DNA of 64,000 bases from contig NZ_SJPY01000001.1 in assembly GCF_007860185.1 (NCBI RefSeq), positions 1,015,132 to 1,079,131 of the forward strand, read 5' to 3'. Origin of the DNA: Novipirellula aureliae. GTDB lineage: Bacteria > Planctomycetota > Planctomycetia > Pirellulales > Pirellulaceae. A model generated the notes under the pieces. It had not been told where the DNA came from. It did no database searches and was given only the letters and a program-made list of their open reading frames with translations. Shown in pieces: positions 40,336-52,547 of the stretch. The position numbers and the translations under genes are program-made. Numbering within the stretch: the first letter of the stretch is position 1; each line of letters begins with the position of its first letter.

Positions 40336-41515
40336 CTATTTTGACCGCATCGGGATAACAAGTGGCATTTGACGGTCGCTGCGAAGTCGCATGCCAAACT
40401 GTGATGCGCCAGTCAGTTGATAACGAAATTGTGAAGCATCAATATCGAAACCGGGGGCATTCACGCTGACACGGTAAACCTCCGACGGCAAGCCGGTAAA
40501 GCTGAATTCACCACGGTTCAGAACACGCGTCTCGCACCAGTCCCAAGCCGGATCGCGGCTCAGCCGCACTTTTACTTCACTAGGTCGTTGTGCGTCCGCA
40601 GGGAACGTCACTCGACCGGTCAGCGATAGACCGGCAACCAGCGTCAATTCACCCAATTCTGTCAATCCGCCGGAGTCGGTTGTTTCCAGCGATAGAGTCT
40701 TGAGTACAGGTGGATTTTGGATTAACAAATCCTCGCTGCGCGCCTCTTGGTTTGGTTCGCATAGTGTGTAGAGCACGTACTTCTGATTCGGTTGCAAGTC
40801 ATTGAACTGGAAACTGCCTGTGTGGTCCGTCACAACCACGCTCTCGCCAACGAAGGATTCAACATTTCGATATCGTTGCACGATCCCAACGGATCGGTTC
40901 GCGACCATCGAGATCAAAAAGTTGCGAAGGAAAGTCAGCAAAGCCTGGCGACGTAACTTCCAAATCAAGCCCAAGCTTAGCATCCTGGCTGGTGATAACG
41001 AAACGACCCTCTGCATCCGTCACGGAAGCTTCATCGACTCCCGGCAAACTTCCCCACCAGCGTTTTTCGCTGGTCTTCGCTCCAGAAGGAGAGACAACTG
41101 CACCGGCCAGCGGTTCGCCCTGGTCGTCTAGTACGCGTCCGTTGAGTATCCGGTCGATCGGGAGGTTTGTGGGGATTGGTTCGAGCTTGACATCGAGCTG
41201 CGTCGTTTGAGGATCAGTCAATCTTGTCAATTGTGGCCGTCGTCCTGGAGCCATCACCAGCACACGAAACAGCAGACCCGAATCGAGTTCGTTAAATGAA
41301 AACCGTCCCTCGGAGTCCGTCGTCGTCGACTTCGCGCAGTCACGGTAGCATGAAGGACAGGTGAGGGCGGCTCCCACTCGGGGCCGCGCCGTGTAGATGT
41401 CGACGATGGCGCCCGCAATGGGACTTCCATTCTCATCCTGAACTTTCCCTGTGAGCGCTGCGTTTCTAGGGGCAACGGCAGCGACAGCTAGCATAATTAT
41501 CATCAAAGCGGACAT
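40336..41515 (-). pseudogene. Carboxypeptidase-regulatory-like repeat protein, frameshifted
   Basis: From ATG 41515 (signal-like MSALMIIMLAVAAVA) the frame encodes two carboxypeptidase regulatory-like beta-sandwich repeats (LTGKVQDENGSPIAGAIVD, then LNGRVLDDQGEPLAGAVVS). It loses similarity near 40900 and stops at 40859. A second frame picks up with VGIVQRYRNVESFVGE, then VTDHTGSFQFNDLQPNQKY and a further repeat, to a stop at 40336. The join falls around 40890-40905, where a deletion plus frameshift best explains the sequence. A secreted or envelope role is expected for the intact ancestor. It directly follows the M56 relic, 5 bases beyond its last stop. Confidence 0.7.
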
Positions 41516-41519
41516 GTTG

Positions 41520-42923
41520 TTACTCCTCATCTTCTTGTAGTGATGGATCCAGCACGATACGAATATCCTGCTGATGGAGGTCGACGTCAAGTTTCGCAGG
41601 AAAGCGAATGGGGCCGCCTTTGGGGTTCGCGAAATAGGCCATGATCGAGAGCGGTTCATCAGGAAGTTCTTTCAAACTGAATCGACCTTGATGATCGGAC
41701 TTCGTCCACGGTGGCGGTCCCGATCGTGTCATGCGAGCGAGATGCTGACCACTACGAAGTTGAGCGGTCACCGAAGCACCTTCGACCGGATTGCCATCGG
41801 GATCGACAACAACGCCCGCGAACGGTTTTCACTTCCCTTTCATCAGCGGCTTGCTCGTCAATGCTGCTGATCGAGTCGCATCGTCATTTTGGATCGCCGC
41901 CGGTTTGTTGAACACTCCTTCATCGGCTCGAGCAGTACTTAGTCGAACAGTACCAACCAACAACGAAGCGATTAGCATAAAGAGCCCGGACAGCAATAAG
42001 AATACGCGTGGCGATCGTTCACGCAGGGATTGTTCTGAATTGAGCAACATCTTGATTCTCCGTGAAAGTTGGCTGGGGCGATCATAAAAACCGATGGCAC
42101 CCGCGATATTTGGGCTGCTCGTGTTTTTGGCAATAGACAAAAGAAGCTCTGAATACTCAATGCGATCAAGAGGATCGCCGGTAACTCCAGCGGCTCGATC
42201 ATCGGCAACCAAGTCCTGGCAAATTCGCAGTTCGCGGCGGAGTATCCAGAACAGCGGCTGATACCAAAGTAAATACTGCCTCCAACCGAAAACCATCGGG
42301 GCCGTAATCTGCGGAGTCACATGTAGGCGCACGGAGTCACCTAGATCACCCGAAATTTGAGTCCAAATATCCAACACCGATGAGCCCGGCGACGGTGCAT
42401 TCCGACATAGCTTTCGCAAACGAATCGCTCCAACGATCCATTCAAAGATGAAGTAACTTATTGCGAGACCGTGGCTCATCAACAAAATCGTAGCGGTAAT
42501 CAACCAGACATCGAGTCGGTTTGAAGTCAAACTATCCGGCGGAGCCGCGATTCTCGCAATCTCGTTCACTTCACTTAACGGTTGCGGTGAAATGGTCTCC
42601 TCAAGTTGCTCGGTGGGACGCCTCGCGGTGGTGCGTGGCACAGAGACCTGCGGCGGAATGGCCACGTCAGTCGTGCTCGCTACTTTAGTGGCAGCGAGGA
42701 GTTCTTGGTCAGTCGAAAAAAGTCCCAGATGCCAGCCTGGCAGCGACGCAAAACAGACCAGCAACGGCACGAAGGTGCTGACAACAAGACTCATCACGAT
42801 AAAATTAACGCGGTCAACCGGTTGCCCCAGCCGTCCGAGGATCGTTTTGGTCGCGATCAGCAGGATTGTTCCCGCGGTGGCGCACTCGATCCATCCAATC
42901 ACCAATGGTTGTGAAGAAATCAT
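41520..42923 (-). pseudogene. BlaR1/M56-type membrane sensor with regulatory-like tail, degenerate
   Basis: From ATG 42923 the first 364 codons encode an M56-like membrane protein with hydrophobic segments near 10-30, 40-60 and 140-165, and a final one near 310-330. The core jumps from APMVFGWRQ to YQPLFWILRRELRICQDL, so the HExxH zinc-protease helix is absent. An in-frame TGA at 41829-41831 then interrupts the frame. Without any shift, the same frame continues as KPFAGVVVDPDGNPVEGASV, a carboxypeptidase regulatory-like domain, to TAA at 41520. Planctomycetes often have this fusion intact. It starts 4 bases after the BlaI stop, as in bla/mec operons. The first part may still be translated. 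Confidence 0.75.
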
Positions 42924-42927
42924 CGAA

Positions 42928-43314
42928 CTAATCCTTTGCCTTCTTCTTTGCAGATCGGGCTTTCGCGATCAATCTTTCGAGTTCACGCATCTCGTCGGTG
43001 GAAACGTCCTCGGCTTGCAGCATATTGAGAACGAGTTTATCGAGCGAGCCATCGAAGACGCGATTCAAAAACCGCGAGCTAACTTGCTCGATCGTGTGTT
43101 TGGGAGAATAGTACAGCACTCGCCCCACCGCTCGGTGCTTCACCAATCCCTTTTCGGCCATGATCCGCAGCAGGGTTTGCACGGTGGTAAACGCCGTTTT
43201 TTGTTGAGCATTCAATGCCTCATGGACATCTCGCACTTTCGATTCGCCAAGTTCCCAAAGCACCTTCAGGACGTCGAGTTCTCGCTCACTAGGATTCACA
43301 TCTGCCGATTTCAT
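42928..43314 (-). CDS. BlaI/MecI/CopY family transcriptional repressor
   Basis: This 128-residue winged-helix repressor shows MKSADVNPSERELDVLKVLWELGES at its start, a recognition region with AFTTVQTLLRIMAEKGLVKHR, and VLYYSPKHTIEQVSSRFLNRVFDGS before the dimerisation helices. In BlaR1/BlaI systems a membrane protease triggers cleavage of this repressor. Here the repressor is intact but the adjoining protease lacks its active site. GGGAGGG lies shortly before the ATG at 43314, and a dyad upstream may be its own operator. Confidence 0.9.
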   Translation of the reverse strand: MKSADVNPSERELDVLKVLWELGESKVRDVHEALNAQQKTAFTTVQTLLRIMAEKGLVKHRAVGRVLYYSPKHTIEQVSSRFLNRVFDGSLDKLVLNMLQAEDVSTDEMRELERLIAKARSAKKKAKD

Positions 43315-43350: not shown

Positions 43351-43930
43351 CAGGTGTTTGGCGATGACTGTTAATGCTGGTAGTGAAATTCCCGCGTAAA
43401 AGGACCCGTCAGCAGTTGATGTTTTGAAACCTGTGAACAATCACAACTTCTTCTGTATCGATTCCTTGCCCCGCCGTCGACGCGGCTCTTCATACGACAT
43501 ATGCAAGCTTAGGGCGTTAAAAAAACAACTTCCGTATCTGACTTACTTGATAGAGGAAAGTTGTTCGTGAGGGACGCATCGAGAAAAGCCAATTCTTTCA
43601 GTTAACGTTATTTCGCGTCCGTCTCGAACAGCCTTCTTCGATCAATGCGGCAGGGGGCTCCTCAGCACATTGAACTACAGAGCCAACTTGACAAAATCTT
43701 CATTATTGCACTGTTTTGACCAAAACCAGAATTGACGCGAAAGGAATTGCCAGCCACGCCAGACGTCGGCACCAGCTGGCTAACCTTGGTGGCGATTAGC
43801 GAGAAGTGTCAAATTTCGCTCGTTTTTTATCCAAGCAATCCCCGCCGGCAGAGTCTAAGGTAACAAATACGAGAGTTTTCCTAATAGCTAATAGCTCCTG
43901 ATCCGCTTTCACCCTGCCAGGTTTCCAAGT
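43351..43930. other. Intergenic region between divergent blaI and the sigma-factor operon
   Basis: About 580 bases with no credible gene. An inverted pair AACAACTTCC (43524-43533) / GGAAAGTTGTT (43555-43565) is visible. The region should hold the sigma operon promoter, possibly autoregulated, but no consensus could be named. Confidence 0.5.
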
Positions 43931-44494
43931 TTGACCTCGACAGACGAACCACCCGCACTCGAACAGGCAAATTCGGCGCACGATCCGTGCGCCGATGAAC
44001 TGGTGCGCCGATGTTTGCCTCGAGTGCGAAGAATCGTCTTTTCGATGGTTTTGCACCACCAGGAAGCCGACGATTTGACGCAAGAGATCATGCTCAAGGC
44101 GATTCGTAGCCTTGGCGGATTCAAGGGCCAAGCAAGCCTTGCGACTTGGACGACTCGAATTGCACTGAACACGACTTACACGTTTTTGCAGAGACGCCAG
44201 CGACGATCGGTTGAACCGCTGCTGAGCGACCCGGCGGACCGATCGACAATTCGTTCGCCTGTCAATGTGATCATCGGGAAAGAACTCGATTACGAGATTC
44301 AAAAGTCGCTTAACCAACTGACACCCAAACTAAGAGCCGCGATGGTGTTGACGGCCATCGACGGTTTAACGCCCAATGAAGCGGCCGAAATCGAGCAGTG
44401 TTCCGCCTCAGCCATGCACAGCCGAATTCATGAAGCGAGAAAGCATTTGCGAAACGATCTTAAAGAGTATCTGCCCAGCGGTGACAAAAAATGA
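43931..44494 (+). CDS. ECF-family RNA polymerase sigma factor
   Basis: This 187-residue sigma factor has region 2 (LVRRCLPRVRRIVFSMVLHH, DDLTQEIMLKAIRSLGGFKG, ASLATWTTRIALN) and region 4 (LNQLTPKLRAAMVLTAIDGL, LTPNEAAEIEQCSASAMHSRIHEARK) joined by a short linker. Regions 1 and 3 are missing, as in ECF factors. The only workable start is TTG 43931, behind a weak AGG. Its stop overlaps the ATG of the next gene (ATGA, 44491). It is the first gene of a five-gene operon and probably drives that operon or envelope genes. Confidence 0.88.
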   Translation: MTSTDEPPALEQANSAHDPCADELVRRCLPRVRRIVFSMVLHHQEADDLTQEIMLKAIRSLGGFKGQASLATWTTRIALNTTYTFLQRRQRRSVEPLLSDPADRSTIRSPVNVIIGKELDYEIQKSLNQLTPKLRAAMVLTAIDGLTPNEAAEIEQCSASAMHSRIHEARKHLRNDLKEYLPSGDKK

Positions 44495-45318
44495 ACGAGA
44501 ACCAAGTTGATGATGTCGACGTGCTTCTTAACCAATGGGCGGAATTGCAACAGCCATCGGCGGAGCATTTGGAAGCTGTAAGGCAGCGAATCGAGGACGC
44601 CTTAAAAAATGATCCGGCGCATGCCATCGTCCTGCCTGCTGCAGAGCCGTCTCGCTGGCGTTCTGCGGCACCGTTGCTTTTGGCGACCGCTGCTGCATTG
44701 GTTGCGTTGATTTCGGCAGCCGTTTGGATCGGCCGTGATATCGATTCCAATGTGGGATCTAACCGCACAAAAATAGCGGCTGCCCCCGAGACGGACTCAA
44801 TCGCCGAACCGATCGAGCGGTTCTCTGACGAACAACGCGAGCAGAAGTGGATTCTGCTTTGTGAGCTGGACCGCCTGTTCGACGGAAAACGTGTTTGGTT
44901 TGCTGAAACAGAATCCGATGTCGTGCTCGGGGGTGACGACAGGCCGCTCGCCAGCGATGTGGCGGCGGAGACGACGGTTGCGATGCGCATGGTGTTGGCG
45001 AAACGAACCTCCGCGACGAATCCGTGGGAACGAGTTTGGGCTGCGGACGTGATCTCACGATCCGATCAGGTGGTGCGATTTTTGACAGACGATCCGCAGC
45101 AACCGACGGCGTCGTTTACGGCATGGGCACACTTGTTGCCGGACGGACTCGTCGCTTGCGACGTGGATTTGAAGTGGGACAACGGAATTTCCGCACAGTT
45201 GAGCGACAGCTTATTGCTTTCGCCCAACGACACAACGCCCGGAGCATCCTTAAGCATCGATGGTGTGGAATACCGATTGTTTCATGCGGTTTCATTGTTA
45301 AAGGAGCCCCAAACGTGA
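44491..45318 (+). CDS. Single-pass membrane protein, probable anti-sigma factor
   Basis: The 275-residue protein has an acidic soluble N-terminus (MNENQVDDVDVLLNQWAELQ, helical to about residue 45), one transmembrane helix (about 60-80, LLLATAAALVALISAAVWI) and an outer domain of about 190 residues that I do not recognise. Position, overlap with the sigma gene and topology are those of an anti-sigma factor. No zinc HxxxCxxC motif is present, so the binding mode would be non-canonical. The first part of the outer domain is helical (FSDEQREQKWILLCELDRLF). Confidence 0.7.
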   Translation: MNENQVDDVDVLLNQWAELQQPSAEHLEAVRQRIEDALKNDPAHAIVLPAAEPSRWRSAAPLLLATAAALVALISAAVWIGRDIDSNVGSNRTKIAAAPETDSIAEPIERFSDEQREQKWILLCELDRLFDGKRVWFAETESDVVLGGDDRPLASDVAAETTVAMRMVLAKRTSATNPWERVWAADVISRSDQVVRFLTDDPQQPTASFTAWAHLLPDGLVACDVDLKWDNGISAQLSDSLLLSPNDTTPGASLSIDGVEYRLFHAVSLLKEPQT

Positions 45319-46367
45319 GAGATTTGTTGCGTTCGATCCACCAACCAATCTGCGTTGCTCTGTTGTCGCTCTCGGCCTTTTGGTGCAATATTGGATGGAC
45401 CGAAGAGTCGCTCGTGGCGAATCCGAATTCGGACCAAACCAGTTTCTTTTCGGACGAGAATGTCTCGTACCAAATTGATTTCGGAACGGAACAACCGATT
45501 GAGGGCGTTATTCAGTGGCAGCTAACGGTTCTGCATCGCACGTTTGGTCGCGGCGACATTCAAATTGATCTGAAGCCAGAGCAACGGAAAAGCGTGACGC
45601 TGAACTTCCAGATGCCGCACGTTAAAACGCATGTCATCCAAGAGTCAACGCTGTCACTCCGTCTCGCTCAAGCTGGCAACGGCGATGCGGTCACGATCTT
45701 TCAACGCGGTCTATGGGCTTTTCCTCGCGATGCATTCGCGGATCGCAACGCATGGCTCAACCAACTTGACCTGAGGCTTTATGATCCCGTTGGCGATACA
45801 GCCAAGGTTCTCGATGAAGCAGAAATCCCGTTCCAAGAGATCCGTTCGATAGCTGCTTTGGCCACGATCGAAAATGGGATCGTGATCATCGGCGAAGGCA
45901 TCGAGGTGCAAAGTAACTCGGGATTGGCGGAAACACTCTTTTCGCTCTGTGCCGATGGCCAACGAATTCTGTGGTTTAGCCCAGCCAATGGCCACTTTGG
46001 AATTCCGGGTATCGGCGACGATTCTGAAAAAAAAAGACCGGACCATTTATTGTTAATGGGGTCTGACAGATTGTGGCAGTTAGACAAGCGGCTCGATACG
46101 TTTGCATGGACCGCAGAGGATCATCAAGGGGTTGGTTTGCAACTTGCCGACGAGGGTGGCCGGATCGTGATCAAGTTTGTAGAACCGCCCGATGGTTGGA
46201 CGTGGCTGGAAGCCACATTCCGTGACACCGATGGACAGCTGATTCTATGCGGGCTGCAGCTGGCTGAAGTTTGGAATGTATCTCCGACGCCACGATACAT
46301 GCTCGCACGACTGCTCGAGCAATTGGACAACTCTCAAAAACCCGAAGAACAGGAAACGGAAAAATGA
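45315..46367 (+). CDS. Secreted protein of unknown function in the sigma operon
   Basis: From GTG 45315 (GTGA overlap with the previous stop, AAGGAG eight bases earlier) the product is 350 residues. It has a signal-peptide-like N-terminus (LLRSIHQPICVALLSLSAFW) and then a mixed alpha/beta body with no motif I know. Features include FSDENVSYQIDFGTEQPIEG, IENGIVIIGEGIEV and GQRILWFSP. The open frame extends far upstream inside the previous gene, but the ribosome-binding site decides for GTG. It overlaps the CsgG-like gene by ATGA. Periplasmic or outer-membrane location is inferred. Confidence 0.72.
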   Translation: MRDLLRSIHQPICVALLSLSAFWCNIGWTEESLVANPNSDQTSFFSDENVSYQIDFGTEQPIEGVIQWQLTVLHRTFGRGDIQIDLKPEQRKSVTLNFQMPHVKTHVIQESTLSLRLAQAGNGDAVTIFQRGLWAFPRDAFADRNAWLNQLDLRLYDPVGDTAKVLDEAEIPFQEIRSIAALATIENGIVIIGEGIEVQSNSGLAETLFSLCADGQRILWFSPANGHFGIPGIGDDSEKKRPDHLLLMGSDRLWQLDKRLDTFAWTAEDHQGVGLQLADEGGRIVIKFVEPPDGWTWLEATFRDTDGQLILCGLQLAEVWNVSPTPRYMLARLLEQLDNSQKPEEQETEK

Positions 46368-47383
46368 TCTCCCGGAAATCGATTGTGAAGTCAATATGGA
46401 CTAGAGGTCTGCTGGGTCTCTTCTCGCTCGTTTGTTTATTGCCAGCCACTGCGCAGGACAAACCGGCAAAAAAGGCTGCGACGCCTATTTACCCCGTTGC
46501 TGTGTTTCCGTTTCAGGAACGAGGTCGCGAGGTTAGCGAGGTGGGGAAGCAGGTGACGGATTTGCTATTTGCGAACTTGGTCGTCAACCCCGAACTGTAT
46601 CTCGTTGAACGCGAGGATTTGGCGAAAATTCTCCAAGAACAAGAATTGAGTGTTTCCGGCGTTGTCAATCCGGCATCCGCGAACAAGGTTGGACAATTGA
46701 CGGGGGCGAAAATTCTAGTGACTGGCTCGGTACTGGAAGTGAACGGAAAACTTTACCTGGTCGCCAAAGTGATCGGAACAGAAACCAGCCGTGTATTGGG
46801 CGCATCGGTAAAAGGAAACGTTGGCGACGACTTGGATAGGCTCGCTGAACAACTCGGCGCCGAAGTAGGTAAGACGATTGTCGACCGAGCGAGCGACTTG
46901 GTTGCCCAGACCGTTTCGCGTGAGGATCGAGTCGCTGCTCTTAAGAAAGCGATGGGTGGTGCAAAGTTGCCTTCGGTCTTTATCCGTATCGATGAGCGGC
47001 ATGTCGGGCAATCGACGATCGATCCGGCTGCGGAAACCGAGATCGCATGGTTCTGTCGAGAACTTGGCTTCGACGTGATCGATTCGGATCGAGGCAGCAA
47101 GGCGGATGCAGACGTGCTGATTGTTGGTGAGGGAGTGAGCGAATTTGCGGCGAGCAACGGGAACCTAAAATCAGTGAAGTCGCGATTAGAGGTGAAGGCT
47201 CTTGATCGAGAAACGGGTGCCGTCATCGCAATTGATCGTGACGTTGCGATTGCGATTGACCTGACCGAGCAGATCGCGGGCAAAGCGGCACTTCAAGACG
47301 CCGCCGCGAGTATCGCGTCACGTCTGCTGCCAAAACTTGCCAGCGACAAAAAGGATGTTCCTAAGCAAAATAGACGGAAATAA
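46364..47383 (+). CDS. CsgG-domain periplasmic protein
   Basis: This 339-residue protein has a signal peptide (TRGLLGLFSLVCLLPATAQ; no convincing lipobox). The first domain is CsgG-like: PVAVFPFQERG, then LVEREDLAKILQEQELSVSG, NKVGQLTGAKILVTGSVLEV. The second, from about 205, is another alpha/beta domain (VFIRIDERHVGQ, ELGFDVIDSDRGSKADADVLIVG, SRLEVKALDRETGAVIAID) resembling those of FlgT/LPP20-like envelope proteins. CsgG itself forms the curli export pore, but the membrane hairpins of that pore are not seen here, so a channel is not supported. ATG 46364 follows an AGGAAA and overlaps the previous stop. Confidence 0.82.
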   Translation: MISRKSIVKSIWTRGLLGLFSLVCLLPATAQDKPAKKAATPIYPVAVFPFQERGREVSEVGKQVTDLLFANLVVNPELYLVEREDLAKILQEQELSVSGVVNPASANKVGQLTGAKILVTGSVLEVNGKLYLVAKVIGTETSRVLGASVKGNVGDDLDRLAEQLGAEVGKTIVDRASDLVAQTVSREDRVAALKKAMGGAKLPSVFIRIDERHVGQSTIDPAAETEIAWFCRELGFDVIDSDRGSKADADVLIVGEGVSEFAASNGNLKSVKSRLEVKALDRETGAVIAIDRDVAIAIDLTEQIAGKAALQDAAASIASRLLPKLASDKKDVPKQNRRK

Positions 47384-47422
47384 CTAAAACTCCGACGCGG
47401 ATACTTTAGAAACACAACGATC

Positions 47423-50400
47423 ATGAACCGTCTTCCGTTTATCTATTTGATCTTCATTGGTGCATTGTTGTGCGGTCGCTTGCCAACGCTGCATGCACAG
47501 GACAATGAAACGCAAACGTATCGGTGGGCGATAATTGCTGCGGATGATGAATCACAATCGGTCGCCGACCTCTTGACCGTTCCCCTGTCGACGACCGACC
47601 GCGTGCAACTGGTCGAGCGTGATCAAATCCGCAAGGTATTGGACGAGCTAGCTTTGAACGCCAGCGGACTTGTTGCCAGTGGAACTGTTGATCGTGACCA
47701 TGCGACTCAATTCGGCAAACTCATTCAAGCCGACGCACTGGTGATCATCAATTCGCCACCGGACCCGACCGCAAGTCGGCAAGATCTGCGAGTCAGGCTG
47801 ATCGACACGCGTACGTCAATTCGTCTGTGGGATGCCCTGTTGCCTCGCCGCAGTATCGACGAAGAGATTCCGGCCATTATGACCGAGTTGCAGTCAGCGA
47901 GCGTGAAACTTTCTATTCCTCCCGAATCGATACGAGCCATTGGCATCACACCCATCATTAGTGGTGAGGCAGGGCATTTTTTGAAACCGTATTGTCGAAC
48001 GCTTACGGCATTGATTGCGGCGGAGTTGTTTCGTGTACCGGAGGTGGTCGTACTCGAGCGAAGCGACCTGCAACGACTCACTGCCGAAAGCCAGCTCAGT
48101 GGAATGGAGCTGCAAATGCGAGGAGCGACACAGTTGCTGGAAATCAGTGTGCATCGCAACACAAACGGCGATGGCATCGTCGCTTCGTGTCGAATCTCAA
48201 CGCCTGGGCACGGAGAATCGGTGGGCACCGAGATCGACATCGCAACTCGCGAAGCCGTCGATGCTCGAAAACCGATCGTCGATTGGGCGATTGAGAACCT
48301 AGACGTTGACAAAGGTAATCGCCAATCAGCTTCACCCGAGCAGGAGGCTCTCCGTTTTGATCACCGTGTACGCTGGACTCGCGGCGAGGATGCGGTTGCG
48401 TTTGCCGATGCCGCATTGGCGTTGGCACCGAGTCGAAAGCGGTTCGAGACAGCCGTCAACGGTAGAATGAAGCTCGCTGGTGAACATCGAGTCGCAAAAC
48501 GGACTCTGCCGACGTTAATCGCCTACCAAGACTGGGCGGAACGACGACTGCAGTACCTGCAACAGTATCAACATGAATTTCGAGAGCCGACATATCGACC
48601 AATCTATTGGAACTTCGGCAGTCCAAACAAAGCCAGCACCGATGAGGAAAAGCGAATACTGGTTGAGAATAGCGATCTTGTAAAACGCATTCGACGATCC
48701 GAATATCAGCATGCTGCCGACAATCCTAGGGCGCGACTACTTGCCGTGCTGCAGTTAATCTATGTCGAACTAGAATGGACGCCTTCCGCATCCGACGGAG
48801 CAATGCAGGTACGCGATTTGCTAAATGAGGCGTTTCAATTGCGAGAGTCGGCAGGTGTGCCGCAGGATTTACACGACCCCTATTTCAATGAAATGATCCG
48901 CGTTTTGATGGTCGCGATTGCCCGTGTGCATGATCATACGATGAAAAAGAGCGGTCATTTACAAACAAGAGACTTCGACAGCTGGGCAAATGATTTGCTC
49001 AGCCTGAATGAAACCTTCGCAAAGGCAGCCATCCTGCGAACACGGACGTTTCACCCCGGCTCCGACGGGAAAAACGCAGCTCGCGAACTCGTGGCGTATC
49101 TGGACGAAATTCCGCTGGTCGACACCAAGCATGTTGACCTACCTTTACGTATCGCCGCACTTTCGAAAATTTCAGACGAGGAACTCTTTGCGTTTTTCAA
49201 GCGAATGCTTGACCAATCCGAAGCACTTGAGAACCCCAATCGAGTACTGGTGTTCCAAACCAACATCAGCGACCTACTAACGCGATTGACAACCGACCAA
49301 GCCACGACGATCGCACGCCGGATGATAGGATTGCTAAAGTTGGAACACGAATCAAACACCATGTTCACGACAACACAGATGCTAGCGTCACTCACTAAGT
49401 TTGTGCCAAGAGAAGAATCGCCATTCCAGCCGCTACCAGTGTTTCGTTTAGCCGAGGAGTCGGCGCCATGGCAAAACTATCGAACCGTGCCAATACAACT
49501 TGGTCGCTTTGGCAGATTGCCAGCGGCAATTGCGATCGATGGTTCTGCTAGTTCGAATCAAAAAAATGTTTATCTTGTTTGGTCGACGGCTGACAATATG
49601 GCGTCAATTCAACGTGTCGGCATTGACACCGGACTAGCCGAACCGTTTGGCCAGGATGTCCCCGGTTTTCGTCGTCACAAGCCGATAAAGATGGTGATCG
49701 GAAATGGTGCGGCTTTCTTGGTCGGCAATCGACCGGGGGTGACGATGGTTACGGCCAACTCAGTCAAACATTTCACGGAAGCTGACGGCGCTGCATCCGA
49801 TCAAATCAAGGAGATCGCTTGGTGCAAAGACAGACTGTTCATTGTTTATGAAGCAGCGTTGGGAAGCTACGATCCGAAAACAGAACGGTTCGAACTACAT
49901 GTTTCGTCCTCTTCCGTCGCCGCTGGCAACCCACTCGATTCACGCGGCTATTTTCAAATTCGACGAATGCTCACTGACCAAGACGCTGTTTGGCTATCGA
50001 TCCATGATCGCACTGAACCGAAAGATCGCACTGAACCGAAAGATCGCACTGGCGTTTGGCGGTGCGAACCGTGGAACAACCAATATGAACAAGTCACCCA
50101 CTATCCGGGCGATCTATCGTTGGGTGACGGCGGGATTTTGATTCACAGCAGCGCTGAGCCGCGTGTTTCTTGGGTCGACGGAGAGTCGTTGAAAGTCACA
50201 GCCATGCCCGATTTTGGATTTGCCAGCGCAACGAAGGGGCCTGGTCCGCCGAATTTTGTCAGCCCTTACGTCGGGCAGCCGATGCCGGAATACTCGTATC
50301 CCGGACCCCATTTGATCAAGGTTGGCGATCACCTGATCGGCATGAACTGTACTCTGTTCACTCGTGACGGCGAATCGCACAGGCTGGACTGTATGCCATC

Positions 50401-50497
50401 TTGGATGCATTGGCTTGGGTTGCAACGATTGGGCAAGGGCTTCATCACTCACTACGATTCATCCCGACGAGTTCTTTGGTACGTCGAACCGAAATAG
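47423..50497 (+). CDS. Large secreted protein with two CsgG-like modules and a C-terminal propeller-like part
   Basis: This 1024-residue protein has a signal peptide (MNRLPFIYLIFIGALLCGRL, cleavage near LHAQ). Two CsgG-like modules follow: WAIIAADDESQ...QLVERDQIRKVLDELALNASG (about 35-140) and IGITPIISGE...VVLERSDLQRLTAESQLSG (about 170-290), close in signature to the previous gene. Residues about 300-650 are helical. The C-terminal 350 residues have repeated beta patterns (VYLVWSTADNMASIQRV, LFIVYEAALGSYDPKTERF, HLIGMNCTLFTRDG) like a beta-propeller. An 18-base tandem repeat encodes HDRTEPKDRTEPKDRT. It starts 39 bases after the CsgG-like gene. It probably lies in the periplasm or on the outer surface. 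Confidence 0.8.
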   Translation: MNRLPFIYLIFIGALLCGRLPTLHAQDNETQTYRWAIIAADDESQSVADLLTVPLSTTDRVQLVERDQIRKVLDELALNASGLVASGTVDRDHATQFGKLIQADALVIINSPPDPTASRQDLRVRLIDTRTSIRLWDALLPRRSIDEEIPAIMTELQSASVKLSIPPESIRAIGITPIISGEAGHFLKPYCRTLTALIAAELFRVPEVVVLERSDLQRLTAESQLSGMELQMRGATQLLEISVHRNTNGDGIVASCRISTPGHGESVGTEIDIATREAVDARKPIVDWAIENLDVDKGNRQSASPEQEALRFDHRVRWTRGEDAVAFADAALALAPSRKRFETAVNGRMKLAGEHRVAKRTLPTLIAYQDWAERRLQYLQQYQHEFREPTYRPIYWNFGSPNKASTDEEKRILVENSDLVKRIRRSEYQHAADNPRARLLAVLQLIYVELEWTPSASDGAMQVRDLLNEAFQLRESAGVPQDLHDPYFNEMIRVLMVAIARVHDHTMKKSGHLQTRDFDSWANDLLSLNETFAKAAILRTRTFHPGSDGKNAARELVAYLDEIPLVDTKHVDLPLRIAALSKISDEELFAFFKRMLDQSEALENPNRVLVFQTNISDLLTRLTTDQATTIARRMIGLLKLEHESNTMFTTTQMLASLTKFVPREESPFQPLPVFRLAEESAPWQNYRTVPIQLGRFGRLPAAIAIDGSASSNQKNVYLVWSTADNMASIQRVGIDTGLAEPFGQDVPGFRRHKPIKMVIGNGAAFLVGNRPGVTMVTANSVKHFTEADGAASDQIKEIAWCKDRLFIVYEAALGSYDPKTERFELHVSSSSVAAGNPLDSRGYFQIRRMLTDQDAVWLSIHDRTEPKDRTEPKDRTGVWRCEPWNNQYEQVTHYPGDLSLGDGGILIHSSAEPRVSWVDGESLKVTAMPDFGFASATKGPGPPNFVSPYVGQPMPEYSYPGPHLIKVGDHLIGMNCTLFTRDGESHRLDCMPSWMHWLGLQRLGKGFITHYDSSRRVLWYVEPK

Positions 50498-50992
50498 TGA
50501 TGCCGAGCGACGAACGTAGGCACCCCCTCTGGGCTATCTTCAATCGTCTTTCTTCATTCCATGAACGGTTACCGTTTGTCCCGGATGTTGCTGTATCACT
50601 CGAGATGATGGTCTGTCCCTTGTCTCATGTCCCTTGTCTCATGTCCCTTGTCTCATGTCCCTTGTCTCATGTCCCTTGTCTCATGTCCCTTGTCTCATGT
50701 CCCTTGTCTCACCCGTTCCTTGGCTCAACTGTTCCTTGGCTCCCCCCTCTGTCCCTTGGCTTCCCCCCTCATAGACATTATTTAAGTATTCATCAAGAGC
50801 TATCTCAATAGCCGTTGACAGCGGGTTTGCTCATTTGATAAACCGAGAGCTAGTCAAACCGAGCTTGGTGAGCCGAGCTCGGAAATCTGAGCATGGCGTC
50901 TAAATGCGTTTCGAATTCCCGCAAACGAGTTCTTTCGCCGTTCCCGCCGTGTTCTCCTTACCTCACAAGCTCAACCATGGAAGGTTGCTCTT
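50498..50992. other. Intergenic region with 14-base tandem repeats
   Basis: This 495-base gap follows the sigma operon. The repeats at 50617-50712 and the degenerate CCTTGGCTC units after them fill its centre. No gene is credible. The last 200 bases should hold the DegT gene promoter. Confidence 0.6.
50617..50712. repeat. Six perfect copies of CCCTTGTCTCATGT plus a partial
   Basis: Fourteen-base units run from 50617 to 50700, with a seventh that diverges at its end. Related but degenerate CCTTGGCT units continue to about 50766. Function unknown. Confidence 0.95.
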
Positions 50993-52153: not shown

Positions 52154-52244
52154 TCGCGGCACGCTTCGCGAATGCAACCGATATTCCCGATGGGGGAACT
52201 CTCTGCGAGTTCCTCTAGTGGACGGATCTGGCATCGCCCCCCTC

Positions 52245-52547
52245 GAGGTACATCAAGGTCTCGTTTTCGGGTCGTGGACGAGATAGAGTAGCCGCGTCTC
52301 TCCGAGACGCGAGGTACGTCAAGGTCCCGTTTTCGGGTCGTGGACGAGGTAGAGTAGCCGCGTCTCTCCGAGACGCGAGGTGCATCAAGGTCCCGTTTCG
52401 GGTCGTGGACGAGATAGAGTAGCCGCGTCTCTCCGAGACGCGAGGTGCATCAAGGTCCCGTTTTTGGGTCGTGGACGAGATAGAGTAGCCGCGTCTCTCC
52501 GAGACGCGAGGTGCATCAAGGTCCCGTTTCGGGTCGTGGACGAGGTG
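52245..52547. repeat. Tandem array of a 66-base unit, about 4.6 copies
   Basis: Units begin at 52245, 52311, 52377, 52442 and 52508. Each reads GAGGTRCRTCAAGGTCYCG, then GGGTCGTGGACGAG, then GTAGCCGCGTCTCTCCGAGACGC, and so contains the hairpin GCGTCTC-TCC-GAGACGC. The fifth unit lacks the hairpin part. The array fills most of the 480 bases between two convergent genes. Confidence 0.93.

Follow-up and report, generated by a model that had tools for sequence, protein, structure and literature searches.

The five genes at 43931-50497 of the window (the whole 64 kb stretch of DNA analysed here) probably form an operon in which an ECF sigma/anti-sigma pair regulates its own expression and that of a modular envelope complex built on a CsgG-like scaffold. 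The regulation by the sigma factor and the architecture of the proteins are well supported, and we infer the assembly and the function of the products. On comparison of sequences, these genes represent a widely shared and seemingly undescribed unit in four phyla of the PVC bacteria. The envelope of PVC bacteria is unusual, and their genomes encode ECF sigma factors in very large numbers, with few known targets. In the present case, comparison alone links one such sigma factor with a promoter sequence and, across four phyla, with a defined target set, and the operon offers a directly testable regulon. The CsgG-like protein family defined here belongs neither to curli nor to any named system and, if the scaffold idea is true, the CsgG fold serves in it as a pore-less base for assembly.

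Organization of the operon

The genes lie head to tail on the + strand in the order sigma factor, anti-sigma factor, Ig protein, csgS and csgL; CsgS and CsgL, the fourth and fifth products, are labels coined in the present analysis. The successive junctions are ATGA, GTGA and ATGA, i.e. three 4-base overlaps, followed by a 39-base gap, and the ORF coordinates agree exactly with this layout as given in the preliminary description. On sequence grounds, the unit is taken to begin at the predicted promoter, at 43830.

Several features were observed around the operon, their gene assignments being made by eye. Divergent from it, on the - strand, are genes for a BlaI/CopY-like repressor and an M56-like membrane peptidase (40859-43314), after which come carboxypeptidase-regulatory-like proteins. 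About 117 bases past csgL, a 14-base repeat, TGTCCCTTGTCTCA, is present in seven perfect copies (50614-50711), with degenerate repeats up to 50770, and a 66-base tandem array (52244-52544; 4.6 copies, 95%) lies between aminotransferase-like and MFS-like transporter genes.

Sigma and anti-sigma factors

ECF sigma factors are usually held by a membrane anti-sigma factor. The first gene (43931-44494, + strand; 187 aa, TTG start) encodes an ECF sigma factor, as had been proposed, with matches to Pfam Sigma70_r2 (8.8e-16, residues 24-92), r4_2 (6.8e-12, sigma4 at 122-173) and TIGR02937 (5.4e-24). It consists of sigma2 and sigma4 only, with a linker of fewer than 50 residues, an architecture that is a criterion for ECF factors with a class I anti-sigma factor (PMC8103513). 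When a profile of the operon sigma factor was run over 60 genomes of the family, the best six matches scored 190-244 bits and the next ECF factor 159 bits, a gap (190 vs 159) that is partly built in because five operon sigma sequences belong to the profile. Five of these six matches are operon copies and the sixth lies at a contig end; orthologous sigma genes lacking these neighbours, which would have spoken against a system, are thus not the rule. Four CsgS-bearing genomes (G019, G020, G043 and G048) are without a sigma gene of the operon class. The sigma factor may already carry an ECF group number in the main planctomycete ECF surveys.

The second gene (44491-45318, + strand; 275 aa) encodes a predicted one-TM anti-sigma factor. 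Its product matches the NF052375 antisigma model at 4e-4, under that model's cut-off, and the window copy has no Pfam match. The zinc anti-sigma domain zf-HC2 is found in 2 of 33 positional homologues, identified by alignment as those of L060 and L071, which carry a cysteine motif in their N-termini. Alignment and hydropathy indicate a short N-terminus in the cytoplasm, where an LDxxLxxW pattern is conserved, followed by one TM segment and a periplasmic domain that is also conserved; the single strong hydrophobic segment, at residues 62-80, bears out the earlier reading of this product as a one-TM protein. An anti-sigma factor with a TM helix thus adjoins the sigma gene, as in class I, whose known anti-sigma groups mix zinc and non-zinc forms (PMC7406223). 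In the Pfam/NCBIfam search, neither the second nor the third product had a Pfam family of its own.

Promoter and regulon

A count of gapped words upstream of 42 sigma genes revealed AAGAT-N16-TCTA in 12 of them, against a maximum of 4 in shuffles, and the resulting promoter matrix reads GCMAAGATTT-N11(12)-GCGTCTAAT. About 38 of the 42 upstream regions score at least 16.6 bits, the shuffled-control maximum being 16.3. The window copy of this predicted sigma-specific promoter (43830-43860, + strand; TCCAAGCAAT-N11-GAGTCTAAGG) contains the bipartite sequence CMAAG-N17-GTCTAA at 43831-43858, 70 bases ahead of the sigma start. A separate matrix, built from 19 loci of non-Planctomycetota or unassigned bacteria so that the test would not be circular, ranks 43830-43860 first in the whole window (18.2 bits vs 13.4 for the next site) and also recovers the site in most planctomycete loci. 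The comparison of regions upstream of orthologous operons, which the preliminary description had proposed, hence yielded a shared promoter, including a cross-phylum prediction of the window site. Its -35 element is CMAAGATT, in which the AAC of class I promoters is not consensus, and the CGT of their -10 element is represented by a frequent CGTC in that of the operon promoter.

With a threshold of 18 bits, the loci taken together hold 50 sites near module genes, i.e. up to 450 bases upstream of them (187 kb), vs 5 in the remaining 2.65 Mb; among these five, one belongs to a locus chosen because of its site (L126) and another lies inside an overlong sigma ORF call (L037). Sites not used for training were found ahead of csgL, csgS or the Ig gene in gap-split operons of other loci, and ahead of an unlinked csgL in G024 (L027:5024, 124 bases upstream), a genome whose operon sits on a different contig. 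G024 holds many csgL copies, and the unlinked csgL paralogues L128, L129, L130, L133 (G024), L131, L132 and L134 have no sigma promoter close upstream.

In the 7.27 Mb of the own genome, searched with the consensus pattern only, the exact consensus occurs just three times, so the sigma regulon seems to extend hardly beyond the operon. The strongest further match (C4:341415, i.e. L126:5415-5445; 27 bits) lies antisense inside a GNAT-like gene, 1.3 kb ahead of an HtrA-like protease gene, and was treated as a probable chance occurrence. The other exact-consensus site (C14:15081, 16 bits) was also considered to be due to chance.

Exported products

The third gene (45315-46367, + strand; 350 aa) encodes an exported protein for which AlphaFold2 predicts, with a pLDDT of 92, an Ig-like beta-sandwich followed by an alpha/beta domain. 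Its Foldseek matches in the PDB are beta-sandwich proteins, among them the Ig-like domains of dextranases and GH2 enzymes, and a few homologues weakly match LacZ_4 and DUF4350; no catalytic site could be named from the structure and profile matches.

CsgS (46364-47383, + strand) comprises a signal peptide, a CsgG/LpoB/FlgO-like domain (40-165) and a second domain (200-330). The CsgG domain announced for this product in the preliminary description was recovered by Pfam (2.2e-13), the match spanning roughly half the profile (positions 9-99 of 210). Among 55 members, the N-terminal domain matches CsgG in all 55 and, weakly, LpoB in 32, FlgO in 12 and TolB_N in 4; these matches to an alpha/beta domain place CsgS in the LpoB/FlgO/TolB_N superfamily, and CsgG in the PDB is weakly matched (E 0.04). 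An internal duplication of the CsgG domain within CsgS was considered and rejected, since the second domain is unrelated in profile-profile comparison. A conserved lipobox is absent as a family trait (8 of 83 CsgS have one); the signal peptides suggest a periplasmic location for CsgS and CsgL.

CsgL (47423-50497, + strand; 1024 aa) carries a signal peptide, two CsgG-like domains (31-165 and 166-295), an alpha-solenoid (305-660) and a beta-propeller (686-1023). It matches Pfam CsgG at 1.3e-7, and its two N-terminal domains match the CsgS N-domain with profile-profile probabilities of 99.2% and 94.4%, respectively; they repeat the same order of elements in the predicted structure, the pLDDT of which is moderate (77.6). 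The two further CsgG-like modules first noticed in this protein are therefore real by these measures, and both of the last two products are related to CsgG by profile, as the system idea demanded. The propeller resembles in structure kelch and WD propellers, the BT4673 sensor, BamB and TolB. Domain searches found no histidine kinase or regulator domain in CsgL, which is thus not a hybrid two-component protein, with kinase and regulator in one chain. Its relatives include proteins with FGE-sulfatase-like domains (L036, L097, L102, L108), WD40 and SHD1 (L019), ankyrin (L047), LRR (L017), PQQ (L085), and TPR or 3-keto-disaccharide-hydrolase-like (L066) domains. The gene diverges fast, and CsgL is a modular, multi-copy family. 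An 18-base repeat encoding DRTEPK units (50006-50051; 2.6 perfect copies) was also observed in the propeller part of csgL.

Conservation and gene neighbourhood

A single-sequence CsgS search of genome contigs gave no match, so an alignment query was needed to find its relatives. In a scan of one genome per species, CsgS relatives were found in 129 loci, of which 80 were kept; these belong to Planctomycetota, Lentisphaerota, Kiritimatiellota and Verrucomicrobiota or are unassigned, and every one with a named phylum is PVC. Within the family, 8 of 59 sampled relatives have orthologues with about 50-62% identity; in the phylum, orthologues were found in 10 of 392 genomes sampled, counting the own genome. 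Two family relatives also encode pairs of more distant CsgG-domain proteins without sigma or Ig genes (L025:6021-11133; L026:6198-9587).

Neighbourhoods were counted with a profile for each of the five products, searched against every open frame in the loci. The Ig gene immediately precedes csgS, in the same orientation, in 68 of 68 loci where 1 kb of sequence is available; where 3.5 kb is available, the sigma and anti-sigma genes lie upstream of csgS together with the Ig gene in 33 of 51 loci. In about 18 of these 51, the module (Ig protein, csgS and often csgL) is present without linked sigma genes. Downstream of csgS, a csgL gene lies no more than 2.5 kb away in 42 of 53 loci, commonly as two or three tandem copies. 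The search for the same five-gene order suggested earlier therefore had a positive outcome, the order recurring across four phyla; no recurrent neighbour at a fixed place was found across the loci beyond the five families. In 43 loci, the pairwise distances among sigma factor, anti-sigma factor, Ig protein and CsgS are correlated (r 0.62-0.80), with values of 0.80 for sigma/anti-sigma, 0.78 for Ig/anti-sigma and 0.71 for Ig/CsgS (p 0.001). The CsgS tree groups for the most part, though imperfectly, by phylum, and shared descent accounts for part of both this grouping and the distance correlations.

Proposed mechanism and alternative explanations

In the scheme that we favour, the sigma factor would be kept at the inner membrane by the anti-sigma factor and set free by an envelope signal, after which it would amplify its own operon and, in some cases, csgL copies at a distance. 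The Ig protein, CsgS and CsgL, all of them predicted to be exported, could then form a soluble, pore-less envelope scaffold from CsgS, the tandem CsgG-like domains of CsgL and the Ig protein. The solenoid-propeller arms, which FGE, WD40, ankyrin, LRR, TPR or 3-keto-disaccharide-hydrolase-like modules would replace or extend in relatives, would bind variable envelope or extracellular ligands, a role suggested by the kinds of domains. As regards the sigma-controlled envelope assembly put forward in the preliminary description, comparison upheld the dedicated sigma factor, the promoter and the set of exported products, while their union in a single physical assembly is still something that we infer. 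About a third of the loci lack a linked sigma gene and several unlinked csgL lack the promoter, which counts against this best reading.

In the main rival reading, the exported proteins would act chiefly as an input: through the propeller they would sense an envelope or extracellular ligand and relay this to the anti-sigma factor by way of its periplasmic domain, as in a sensor that has its own synthesis amplified. This is possible, if clearly not the likelier case. It agrees with the resemblance of the CsgL propeller, among many others, to the extracellular sensor domain of BT4673, with the best co-variation of the Ig protein being that with the anti-sigma factor, and with a regulon that seemingly holds nothing beyond the module. 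However, about a third of the loci hold the module without linked sigma/anti-sigma genes, and unlinked csgL copies exist both with and without the promoter; the exported proteins as output of the sigma factor fit these facts better than a sensor does. A bolder version of the scaffold, in which CsgS and CsgL form a pore-less CsgG-like ring or platform with exchangeable propeller arms and recognition modules, as a PVC-specific machine with its own sigma factor and promoter code, is tentative and rather doubtful.

A system for competition or defence between bacteria that displays variable recognition modules is unlikely; the variable C-terminal modules, the tandem csgL paralogues and the patchy spread (8 of 59 family relatives) would suit it, but no recurrent toxin, nuclease, immunity gene or mobile element is found beside the module. 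An export machine for curli-like or other fibres, with CsgS as outer-membrane pore, is suggested by the CsgG profile match and is nonetheless very improbable, given that only the first half of the profile is matched, that no pore or transmembrane hairpin is visible in the CsgG-like products, that 8 of 83 CsgS carry a lipobox, and that curlin repeats and CsgE are absent from the genome (E. coli controls positive for both). The statement that this is not a known curli locus, made from the sequence at the outset, thus holds. That unrelated genes merely adjoin is hardly credible, the fast divergence of csgL being all that speaks for it, against a gene order kept across four phyla, a shared promoter and correlated distances.

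Comparison with known systems

Among the papers searched, none deals with CsgG proteins beside ECF sigma factors in these phyla, nor was anything relevant found on CsgG with Planctomycetes, ECF or LpoB/TolB.

CsgG domains belong to curli export and related periplasmic proteins. The operon shares with the CsgG curli exporter (type VIII) the N-terminal alpha/beta domain, present once in CsgS and twice in CsgL, whereas its products have no pore hairpins, conserved lipoprotein signal, curlin or CsgE, and the CsgS match extends over half of the profile. TolB and LpoB/FlgO are comparable by their CsgG/TolB_N-like domains, with LpoB profile matches in 32 of 55 CsgS and, in CsgL, a propeller joined to such domains. 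TolB, however, has one N-domain and a six-bladed propeller in a tol-pal setting, while CsgL has two N-domains plus a solenoid of alpha-helices some 350 residues long, with no further recurrent neighbour, in an operon with its own sigma factor and without a Pal or PBP partner. With hybrid two-component sensors of the BT4673 type, the operon has in common an extracellular propeller fold and a regulated envelope setting, but it combines a separate exported protein with an ECF sigma factor and has no kinase. Finally, the class I ECF pairs RpoE/RseA and SigW/RsiW resemble it in their sigma2/sigma4-only factor, adjacent one-TM anti-sigma factor and own operon promoter; the operon differs from them in its -35 (CMAAGATT) and -10 (GTCTAA) elements, in place of the common AAC/CGT, and in its conserved targets, which are a CsgG-like module.
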